From positions 1 through 35,843 of the forward strand of contig JAHDEO010000012.1 in NCBI GenBank assembly GCA_020628725.1: 35,843 nt of DNA, written 5' to 3'. This document shows positions 3 to 3,694 of this stretch, one piece after another. Below the pieces are notes generated by a model that worked only from the letters and a program-made list of their open reading frames with translations, searched no databases and was not told the origin of the DNA. The stretch comes from Saprospiraceae bacterium (GTDB taxonomy: Bacteria; Bacteroidota; Bacteroidia; Chitinophagales; Saprospiraceae). Each line of letters opens with the position of its first letter. Positions within the stretch are counted from its first letter, which is position 1. The position numbers and the translations under genes were made by a program.

Positions 3-1004
3 TTCCACCAGTCACAGCGAACGGAAACACAAGCAGTGGAAACCATGCCCGGCGTGCGATGTTGGCGTAAAAGTGTACCGATTGACAAAGTGGGTTTGTA
101 TATTCCGGGCGGTACTGCGCCTTTGTTTTCTACGGTGTTGATGTTGGGTATTCCTGCGGCGATAGCGGGCTGTCGAGAGGTCGTGCTGTGTACACCTCCA
201 CAGGCAGACGGCAAGGTAAATCCCGTTATTTTGTATGCAGCAGAATTGGTCGGTATCAAATCTGTGTTCAAAATCGGTGGAGTGCAAGCAGTCGGGGCAA
301 TGGCATACGGAACAGCGAGTGTACCGCGTGTATACAAGATTTTTGGACCGGGCAATCAATACGTTACTGTTGCTAAACAATTGGTTAGTCGCGGCGGCGT
401 ATCAATTGATATGCCCGCCGGACCTTCGGAAGTTTTGGTCGTCGCAGATGATACCGCAAATCCCGCTTATGTAGCTGCGGACTTGCTTTCGCAAGCCGAA
501 CACGGTATTGACAGTCAGGTAGTTTTAGTTTGTTTTAATGAAAAAACGGCAACACAGGTACAAACCGAAATCAACGCACAACTGACCGCACTACCTCGCG
601 CCGATATTGCCCGTAAAGCATTGGAAAACAGCCATGCCGTCATCATTCAAACCGAAAACGAAGCCCTCAACCTCATCAACGAATATGCCCCCGAACACCT
701 CATTATTGCAACAAAAAATGCAGATAATTTTTCAGAAAAAATAATCAATGCAGGCTCGGTATTCATCGGAAATTACACCCCCGAAGCCGTCGGCGACTAC
801 GCCTCCGGTACGAATCACACGCTACCGACCAACGGTTATGCAACAGCGTATAGTGGCGTTTCATTAGATACATTTTTAAAGAAAATTACCTATCAAAAAC
901 TCACAAAAGAAGGTTTAGAAAATATCGGCGAAGCCGTCATGCAAATGGCAGCCGCCGAGCAATTAGACGCTCACAAAAATGCGGTAGCAATAAGACTTGA
1001 ATAA
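3..1004 (+). CDS. hisD: Histidinol dehydrogenase HisD, 5' end outside window
   Basis: HisD catalyses the last two steps of histidine synthesis, oxidising L-histidinol to L-histidine with NAD+ and a zinc ion. The frame is open from the left edge (FHQSQ...VETMPGVRCWRK) with no upstream stop, so about 100 N-terminal residues of the usual ~430 lie outside; an apparent start at the GTG near 36 is only an internal codon. Visible family motifs are VGLYIPGG, the zinc/active-site segment SQAEHG near 490, NEYAPEHL near 680 (catalytic Glu-His pair), GDYASGTNH near 800, and the final zinc-ligand His in DAHKNA at the C-terminus. It is followed by an FNR-like gene and then hisC-hisB, which fits a his operon. 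The identification is firm. Confidence 0.97.
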   Translation, partial: FHQSQRTETQAVETMPGVRCWRKSVPIDKVGLYIPGGTAPLFSTVLMLGIPAAIAGCREVVLCTPPQADGKVNPVILYAAELVGIKSVFKIGGVQAVGAMAYGTASVPRVYKIFGPGNQYVTVAKQLVSRGGVSIDMPAGPSEVLVVADDTANPAYVAADLLSQAEHGIDSQVVLVCFNEKTATQVQTEINAQLTALPRADIARKALENSHAVIIQTENEALNLINEYAPEHLIIATKNADNFSEKIINAGSVFIGNYTPEAVGDYASGTNHTLPTNGYATAYSGVSLDTFLKKITYQKLTKEGLENIGEAVMQMAAAEQLDAHKNAVAIRLE

Positions 1005-1915: not shown

Positions 1916-3694
1916 ATGCAACACCTCGTTCGACCAAATATTTTAAAATTAAAACCCTACTCTTCCGCCCGCAGCGAATTTAAAGGCGAAGGCAACTTCA
2001 TCCTCTTAGATGCCAACGAAAATCCATATAACAACGGACTCAATCGCTATCCCGACCCACTTCAATTGAAGCTAAAAAAACGATTGAGTGGGATAAAAAA
2101 CATTCCCGCCGAACAAATATTTTTGAGCAACGGAAGCGATGAAGCAATCGGTTTGATAACAACAGTTTTTTGCGAACCGGGACAAGATAATATCATCATT
2201 TTACCACCGACATTTGGAATGTATCGCGTAGCGGCAGACGTGGCGAATGTGGAAGTACGCGAAGTGAGTCTCATGCCTGATTTTCAACCGAATGTGGAAG
2301 CTATTCTCGCGGCTGCGGACGACCATTCCAAAGTACTTTACGTTTGTACGCCCAATAATCCGACAGGAAATTCGATGCAAGCGGAACGCATCCGCGAATT
2401 ACTCGAAAAATTCAAAGGAATCGTGGTCGTAGATGAAGCGTATATTGATTTTTCAGAGCAAGAAAGTTGTACAAATTGGCTTGATAAATTTCCGAATTTA
2501 ATCGTCACACAAACCTTCTCCAAAGGCTGGGGCATGGCAGGTGTAAGATTAGGAATGACATTCGCCAATGAGGAAATCATTGACTATTTGAATAAGGTAA
2601 AAATGCCTTATAATGTCAATGAACTAACACAGTGGATAGCCATGCAAGCCCTTGAAAATCACACCGAAGTACAAGCCAGAATCCAAACCATTCTCCAAGA
2701 AAGAAAAAAACTTGAGGCGGCTTTGTCGCAATTTTCATTTGTCAAAAAAATATTCCCATCAGATGCGAATTTTTTATTGGTACAAGTCGAAAAACCGCGT
2801 GAATTATATGATTTTTTAATCGAAAAAAAAGTTATCGTACGCAATCGTGCGAATGTACCGATGTGCGAGGGGAGTTTGCGATTTAGTGTGGGTACGGAGG
2901 CGGAGAATGAGTGGTTGGTGAGGTGTTTGGAAGCGTTTACCTCACCCCGACCCTCTCCTTCAAAGGAGAGGGAGTTCGCTTTATCTGGAGATTCTGCTAA
3001 ACCCGTATCTTTTGAGGAAGAAGTTTTGCGAAGCGAAACTGACTCCCTCTCCTTGAAAGGAGAGGGCTGGGGTGAGGTAGACAACCCGATACTGAAATTC
3101 CTCTCACAGTCCACCCCACGCACCGCCACCGTCCAACGCACGACCAAAGAAACCGACATCAACATCCACCTCAATCTCGACGGCACGGGCACGAGCGACA
3201 ACCACACAGGCATCGGCTTTTTCGACCATATGCTCGACCAACTCGCGCGTCACTCCGGCGTAGACTTGCGCGTACACGTAAAAGGTGACCTCCACATCGA
3301 CGAACATCACACCATCGAAGATACAGCACTGGCACTCGGCGAGGCTTACGCACAGGCATTGGGCGATAAGCGGGGGATTGAGCGCTATGGTTTTTGCTTG
3401 CCGATGGATGATTGTTTGGTGCAAGTAGCATTGGATTTTGGTGGACGCCCGTGGCTGGTGTGGGAAGCCGAATTTAAGCGCGAAATGATAGGACAAATGC
3501 CGACGGAGATGTTTATTCATTTCTTCAAATCTTTCTCTGATGCCGCTAAGTGCAATCTCAACATTAAAGCAGAAGGTACGAATGAACATCACAAAATTGA
3601 AGGGATTTTTAAGGCATTTGCTAAGGCAATTAAGATGGCGGTGCGACGCGATTTTATGAATCGGCAATTGCCTACGACTAAGGGAGTTTTATGA
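1916..3694 (+). CDS. hisC-hisB: HisC-HisB fusion: histidinol-phosphate aminotransferase plus IGP dehydratase
   Basis: One 592-residue frame joins two histidine enzymes. Residues 1-341 are HisC, a PLP aminotransferase: [22 protein letters not shown], and the PLP lysine K203 in TFSKGWG, ending at WLVRCLEAF as in free-standing HisC. Residues about 398-592 are imidazoleglycerol-phosphate dehydratase His[15 protein letters not shown], the metal-binding [20 protein letters not shown] region, HHTIEDTA, and [16 protein letters not shown]. The intervening ~50 residues are translated from a palindromic DNA repeat (2939-3078) and look unstructured. No ATG, GTG or TTG lies between the repeat and the HisB domain, so HisB appears to be made only as a fusion. 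HisB fused to a HAD phosphatase is common; fusion to HisC through a repeat is not. Confidence 0.93.
2939..3078. repeat. Palindromic repeat embedded in the hisC-hisB frame
   Basis: Two 36-base arms (2939-2974 and 3043-3078) are inverted copies with about four mismatches. Each contains its own small hairpin (CCCTCTCCTT ... AAGGAGAGGG) and an outer CTCACCCC/GGGGTGAG. This type of sequence is familiar as an intergenic repeat in many bacteria. Here it is translated as [12 protein letters not shown] ... [12 protein letters not shown] and forms the linker of the fusion protein. Confidence 0.9.

Follow-up and report, generated by a model that had tools for sequence, protein, structure and literature searches.

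A single open reading frame of a Saprospiraceae genome joins histidinol-phosphate aminotransferase (HisC) to imidazoleglycerol-phosphate dehydratase (IGPD) through a linker encoded by two inverted palindromes. Comparison of the locus with its relatives makes it quite probable that this is a genuine two-domain protein, the IGPD part being only the dehydratase half of HisB, and that it arose in two steps: the fusion came first, by loss of a domain, and the palindromes followed as tolerated passengers. The window, i.e., the whole stretch of 35,843 nucleotides that was analysed, is contig C338 of the source genome G000, a draft of 7.2 Mb in 683 contigs.

The features of the locus are listed in Table 1. 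Translation gave 592 codons uninterrupted by a stop, and no in-frame methionine was found between residue 341 and M439, which already lies within the IGPD domain. Hence, translation and profiles confirmed the original prediction that the frame runs from HisC through an inverted repeat into HisB with neither a stop nor a HisB start of its own. Pfam placed Aminotran_1_2 at residues 39-336 and IGPD at residues 431-572 of the 592-aa protein. Among the NCBIfam profiles, TIGR01141 assigned the first part to HisC (351.1 bits against a cut-off of 276.55, residues 6-339), and K203 within TFSKGWG was the lysine of the SK motif expected of HisC. The second part was assigned to IGPD by NF002111 (261.3 bits against a cut-off of 231, residues 401-592), the remaining IGPD models staying below their own cut-offs, and contained the His-rich motifs expected of IGPD, DEHHTIED and NEHHKIE.

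A structure model calculated with 65 aligned sequences showed a mean pLDDT of 85.4, with 397 of the 592 residues at 90 or higher; a shallower model from five sequences (mean pLDDT 57.9) was set aside in its favor. The values of the 65-sequence model were mostly above 90 in both domains, except for residues about 11-50 of HisC (52-65), whereas block means of 37-57 were obtained over residues 351-400, with values below 50 at residues 352-388. The model is consistent with two intact domains connected by a bridge that is probably disordered. Upstream, hisD is apparently truncated by the start of the contig, and a gene for an FAD/NAD-binding oxidoreductase (1124-1840) sits between hisD and the fusion gene.

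Table 1 Features of the hisC-IGPD locus (positions in the window).
Feature	Position	Strand	Basis
hisD, upstream neighbour of the fusion gene	36..1004	+	profile match begins at position 75 of 393
hisC-IGPD fusion gene, 592 aa	1916..3694	+	ORF translation, Pfam, NCBIfam profiles
HisC domain (histidinol-phosphate aminotransferase), residues 1-341	1916..2938	+	profiles, structure model
Inverted repeat, left arm, containing a smaller palindrome (core 2941-2958, CTCACCCCGACCCTCTCC)	2935..2975	+	repeat search
Repeat-derived linker sequence, residues 342-388	2939..3079	+	translation, linker comparison, structure model
Spacer of 66 nt separating the arms, translated in frame	2976..3041	+	repeat search
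Inverted repeat, right arm (core 3059-3076, minus strand, CTCACCCCAGCCCTCTCC)	3042..3082	+	repeat search
DNPILKFL segment	3080..3103	+	aligns with the last HAD helix; HisB profile matched from residue 381
IGPD domain (imidazoleglycerol-phosphate dehydratase), residues 401-592, with stop codon	3116..3694	+	profiles, structure model

The two arms in the linker were 41 nt each, 88% complementary and 66 nt apart, and each held a smaller palindrome. Folding of the strand at 2930-3090 gave -89 kcal/mol, whereas 200 shuffled sequences averaged -47.5 (sd 3.7; z -11.2) and not one of them (0/200) folded as well. The core of this palindrome family (family A), CTCACCCCNNCCCTCTCC, was present in two copies in the window against 0.08 expected when up to three mismatches were allowed, and in nine copies in G000 against none for the reversed control with at most one mismatch. 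The original prediction was right in that the linker is encoded by a palindromic repeat whose family has further copies in the genome. By eye, the beginning of the spacer looked similar to sequence flanking certain other copies of family A. At the protein level, the palindrome would act as a disordered spacer, as judged from the model, and no function would be needed to explain it.

In unfused relatives, hisC is followed by a hisB of approximately 375-400 aa encoding a HAD phosphatase domain and IGPD. A simple motif test found the HAD and IGPD motifs in one ORF at 93 of 134 loci, a set in which fused loci were included and two genomes were counted twice; five further loci missed by the test had both domains on reading. 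Phosphatase-less HisB proteins flagged by the same test in L028, L033, L174, and L189 were rejected as such, with a full HAD region carrying DRDGV or DRDGC in each case, and L150, which was also missed, had a full HAD region on reading. With the profile of bifunctional HisB (HisNB), NF003937, the fused protein remained below the cut-off (322.9 bits against 443) and covered only positions 151-355 of 355. From this limited match, we infer that a deletion took away the phosphatase domain along with the stop of hisC and the start of hisB. Such a deletion, extending from the end of hisC almost through the phosphatase domain, would have joined HisC to IGPD, and DNPILKFL, which corresponds in the alignment to the last HAD helix (W..IY.FL in relatives), may be its scar. 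Accordingly, the predicted HisC-HisB fusion with a palindromic linker was borne out as such, but not as a fusion with a whole HisB, of which the HAD phosphatase half is missing.

A search for the HAD HisN domain gave strong matches in G001, G005, and G006, against matches of just 23-27% in G000, G002, G003, and G004. The HAD match of G000 is GmhB-like and scores above the TIGR01656 cut-off; the absence of HAD in G002 and G004 is weaker evidence, because both genomes are only about 69% complete. A separate HisB at L159:7017-7871 had a region before IGPD that was shrunk to approximately 90 residues without a HAD motif, and it is possibly an intermediate in phosphatase loss.

Among 60 genomes including the source, residues 1-592 were matched without a break in G000 (100% identity), G004 (90%), and G002 (84%), and among the matches listed, best first, these were the only three of the 298 genomes of the family with an unbroken match. 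All three belong to the same genus, and the nearest named matches were uncultured Saprospiraceae MAGs. The linkers of the three genomes differed. That of G000 contains the family A palindrome pair and that of G004 a pair of family B palindromes (core CCCCCCAGCCCCCTCC; arms of 32 nt, 91% complementary), whereas no inverted repeat of at least 12 nt was found in the G002 linker of 23 residues. The linker spacers of G000 and G004 have a GCTTTAT stretch in common.

In a joint HisC and IGPD tree of 105 loci, G000, G002, and G004 formed one clade with a support of 1.0. The branching order within the clade was poorly supported in the trees (0.28-0.76), with G000 and G004 the most alike (HisC 0.91, IGPD 0.95). 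The nearest neighbours of the clade differed between the HisC tree and the IGPD tree, and its HisC was nearer to that of other genera than to that of G001 and G005, which are unfused members of the same genus. G003 gave no good hisC-hisB match, and no fusion intermediate was found in the genus. Since the three fused genomes form one clade while their linkers differ, the most natural reading is that the fusion predates the repeats.

HisC-IGPD fusions with short linkers were also present in two Bacteroidales MAGs, L089 and L090, and neither had an inverted repeat at the fusion junction. In the joint tree, L089 grouped with L109, L150, and L154, all three with HAD and IGPD, and L090 stood apart. 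The L089 group had a support of 0.685 in the joint tree and 0.906 in the IGPD tree, and was not recovered in the HisC tree; on the basis of this grouping and its uneven supports, the two fusions are likely to be independent of one another.

A candidate for the missing activity was found in G000 as a PHP-type histidinol-phosphatase of the HisJ family, assigned by TIGR01856 (140.2 bits against a cut-off of 90.2); PRK07328 and PRK08123, which are narrower, remained below their cut-offs. The gene is located at L082:1396-2283, and the two adjoining ORFs are not his-like by eye. TIGR01856 was above its cut-off in all three fused genomes and in the unfused G005, and not in G001 or G006. G005 carries both phosphatase types, HAD and PHP, and shows that the two can coexist before one is lost. 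In the whole family, TIGR01856 exceeded the cut-off in 24 of 298 genomes, i.e., in 3/3 fused genomes against 21/295 others (Fisher p 0.0005); the three fused genomes count as a single event, and some of the 295 gave no good hisC-hisB match. Beyond the family, the PHP phosphatase was above the cut-off in L089, L090, and L159 (3/3), compared with 12 of a further 50 Bacteroidota (p 0.02); these 50 controls were hand-chosen from 80 loci without a one-by-one check of hisB, and one of them, L094, is seemingly a Saprospiraceae genome already counted among the 298. In three Saprospiraceae controls, L091-L093, no PHP phosphatase was found. These results suggest that a separate PHP-type enzyme, a plausible replacement, probably took over the lost histidinol-phosphatase activity. 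The GmhB-like HAD phosphatase of G000 could be the phosphatase instead. The link between PHP phosphatase and fusion comes from few independent events, and the PHP gene is found in unfused genomes too.

The family B palindrome of the G004 linker was counted 32 times in G000, 63 in G004, 30 in G002, 26 in G005, once in G001, and not at all in G003. For its position relative to genes, all listed sites of G000 (26 regions) and G004 (43 regions) were taken, to which G002 and G005 contributed a further 11 and 13 regions, respectively; sites near contig ends and two unlisted G005 sites were left out. Arms less than 250 bp apart were merged, and elements closer than 250 bp to an end were dropped (4, 22, 1, and 1). 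An element was scored as in an ORF when the ORF had at least 100 codons and extended 150 nt on both sides of the element. By this rule, 16/24 elements in G000, 9/24 in G004, 5/10 in G002, and 5/12 in G005 were in ORFs and in frame, a total of 35 of 70 scorable elements, some of the ORFs being possibly spurious or starting after the element. Random positions in the same stretches were in ORFs at a frequency of 0.60-0.70, and 35/70 differed from an assumed 0.65 with a binomial p of 0.012. Family B thus avoids ORFs mildly, and over-representation in genes was rejected by the same comparison. The elements varied in their C-runs and in where they ended, which blurred their length modulo 3 inside and outside genes.

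When the rule was relaxed, 24 of the 32 single family B arms of G000 lay in ORFs. Of 18 ORFs drawn from the resulting list, a few of which (L265 and L272 among them) fail the stricter rule, nine had a Pfam match above the gathering score: a PD-(D/E)XK nuclease, two glycosyltransferases, an M36 peptidase, a PMT-like protein, the tRNA-lysidine synthetase TilS, an AAA ATPase, a Rieske protein, and a DUF2279 protein. Family B was read in three frames, giving peptides such as PPAPSKGGD, SPQPPPKGE, and PPNPLQRGR. The TilS insert of 34 residues was lacking in every orthologue aligned (14/14), including three of the genus itself; of the 18 genomes searched, G002 and G004 yielded no match to TilS, and one more was left out of the alignment. 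In all three cases in which domains were mapped on both sides (TilS, a glycosyltransferase, and the M36 peptidase), the insert lay between domains. Three inserts were shared between species at the same position: that of the glycosyltransferase in G000 and G004, partly deleted in G002 (L252, L317, and L342); that of the AAA ATPase in G000 and G005 (L257 and L361); and that of the PMT-like protein in G000 and G004 (L271 and L299). Within the genus, in-frame palindromes therefore persist, the HisC-IGPD linker being one of many such cases. Within palindrome-coded inserts of L328 and L355, short peptides (PSKGGEVLGDF and SPPLEGSTTTL) occurred in tandem, a sign of local expansion.

For family A, the hisC-IGPD copy was the only one in a long ORF among the G000 copies scored; one more was in a 90-aa ORF, and others were intergenic or at gene ends. 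A one-mismatch family A site of G001 was located within a 774-aa ORF. The original expectation that such repeats are normally intergenic thus fits most family A copies but not the sister family B, with half of its scorable elements in ORFs. Of 130 family B arms of 36 nt, 72 were open in each of the six frames, compared with 15% of shuffled sequences and 5% of 36-mers drawn at random from the genome. A general openness of the repeats in every frame was nevertheless rejected, since the whole insert at 2939-3078 is open in just 2/6. Hence, their composition favors open frames, but the survivors would still have to be selected.

Taken together, these findings would fit the following course of events. 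The ancestor would have had adjacent genes for hisC and a bifunctional hisB (HAD histidinol-phosphatase and IGPD). A deletion would then have taken the hisC stop, the hisB start, and approximately 150 phosphatase codons, leaving the last HAD helix and joining HisC to IGPD, with the lost activity presumably covered by the separate PHP-type histidinol-phosphatase. Subsequently, REP-doublet-like repeats of two related families would have entered, or been exchanged within, the new flexible linker, where they could survive because the frame was kept and the disordered linker tolerates them. The linkers do differ between relatives, and we infer the direction of this change. G002 may have lost a palindrome completely; another of its genes does contain a partly deleted copy. 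For G000 and G004, a single ancestral insertion with a later swap of arms is no less possible than two separate insertions, the two courses being indistinguishable because the spacers of both genomes have GCTTTAT in common.

According to the original prediction, the palindrome caused the fusion by inserting between hisC and hisB and thereby removing the hisC stop and the hisB start. A palindrome does span the linker in G000, and another one does so in G004. However, the observation named beforehand as refuting this prediction, the same fusion in relatives with a different linker, was made: the palindrome of G004 belongs to another family, and G002 is fused without any inverted repeat detected, as are the junctions of L089 and L090. 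Moreover, insertion leaves the loss of the phosphatase domain unexplained, and we now regard it as very improbable as the cause. Somewhat less improbable, yet still unlikely, is a repeat-mediated deletion, in which recombination or slippage between palindromes near the end of hisC and inside hisB would have removed the phosphatase domain and left a palindrome at the junction, to be lost later in G002. Palindromes lie at the junction in two of the three fused genomes and within other ORFs, and G002 has a partly deleted copy in its glycosyltransferase gene; against these points stand the lack of an inverted repeat in the G002 linker, the different families of the G000 and G004 arms, and the palindrome-free fusions of L089 and L090. 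A chance read-through produced by misassembly or decay could be imagined for drafts of 410-690 contigs (about 460 for G002 and about 590 for G004), in which repeats can misassemble. Nevertheless, the frame is kept in three genomes at 84-90% identity, the G002 linker has no repeat to misassemble, and both domains score above their family cut-offs and are well modelled, so that an artefact or a pseudogene appears extremely improbable. Domain loss followed by the arrival of the palindromes is the reading that we retain, and the comparison corrects the attractive story of a repeat insertion making a gene fusion.

Other long reading frames were noted at his loci. Open frames of 730-870 aa over HisC were rejected as HisC-HisB fusions: L015, L019, and L021 have separate ORFs with a stop between them, and HisD (by eye) and HisC are joined in one ORF in L017 (838 aa) and L022 (811 aa). 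HisC-bearing ORFs of approximately 790-820 aa in L091, L092, L093, L109, and L177 suggest the same HisD-HisC fusion by their length alone.

The accessible part of one paper lists five his fusions, i.e., hisA/hisF, hisIE, hisHF, hisNB, and hisIED (PMC1963479). As here, enzymes of one pathway are joined in these; in contrast, hisC is in none of the five, and the HisD-HisC fusion is likewise absent from that list. Bifunctional hisNB is reported, in the part available, for all Bacteroidetes considered in a survey of the phylum (PMC8305728), and no mention of a HisC-IGPD fusion was found in that part. In open-licence literature, covered mainly as titles and beginnings of abstracts, no earlier report of a hisC-hisB fusion was found, nor, in such titles and beginnings of abstracts, one of in-frame palindromes in Bacteroidota or Saprospiraceae. 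The fusion shares with bifunctional HisB the IGPD half and the last HAD helix, but lacks its catalytic HAD phosphatase domain and has HisC in its place. The HisC-IGPD architecture is seen in Saprospiraceae and Bacteroidales, each time with a PHP phosphatase in the genome, and may exemplify how replacement of an enzyme paves the way for the loss of a domain.

The palindromes resemble two kinds of known element. Rickettsia palindromic elements (RPE), according to the part of the source available, are approximately 100-150 bp long and occur in frame in unrelated genes (PMC10969869); in-frame palindromes of similar length in unrelated genes were likewise found here, with an insertion evident for TilS and in-frame presence in the others. 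Unlike RPE, as far as that part describes them, the present repeats use three frames and have half of their scorable elements in ORFs. REP doublets (REPIN, BIME) are described in the accessible parts of two papers as two inverted palindromes that are dispersed, some of them intragenic (PMC3733652, PMC6006769), and intragenic REP dimers or groups code 20 to 30 residues (PMC3733652). The present repeats likewise consist of two inverted palindromes with dispersed copies, and single arms occur too; the GTAG/CGTC tag of the REP superfamilies was, by eye, not constant in the family A copies inspected (GTAG at one window arm; GTAA, GTGA, GTTG, and GTTA at others). In-frame palindromes themselves are thus already known; what appears new, as far as the accessible literature goes, is that they occur in these hosts and that half of those scorable lie within ORFs. 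How genes tolerate such inserts could be studied here, beyond Rickettsia and the species of PMC3733652. With moderate confidence, we propose that this Saprospiraceae genus harbors an RPE-like system of REP-doublet palindromes, which lie in genes little below the random frequency, are read in three frames, persist in frame across species in linkers and loops, and produce disordered linkers, including that of a new HisC-IGPD enzyme born by domain loss after replacement of its phosphatase.
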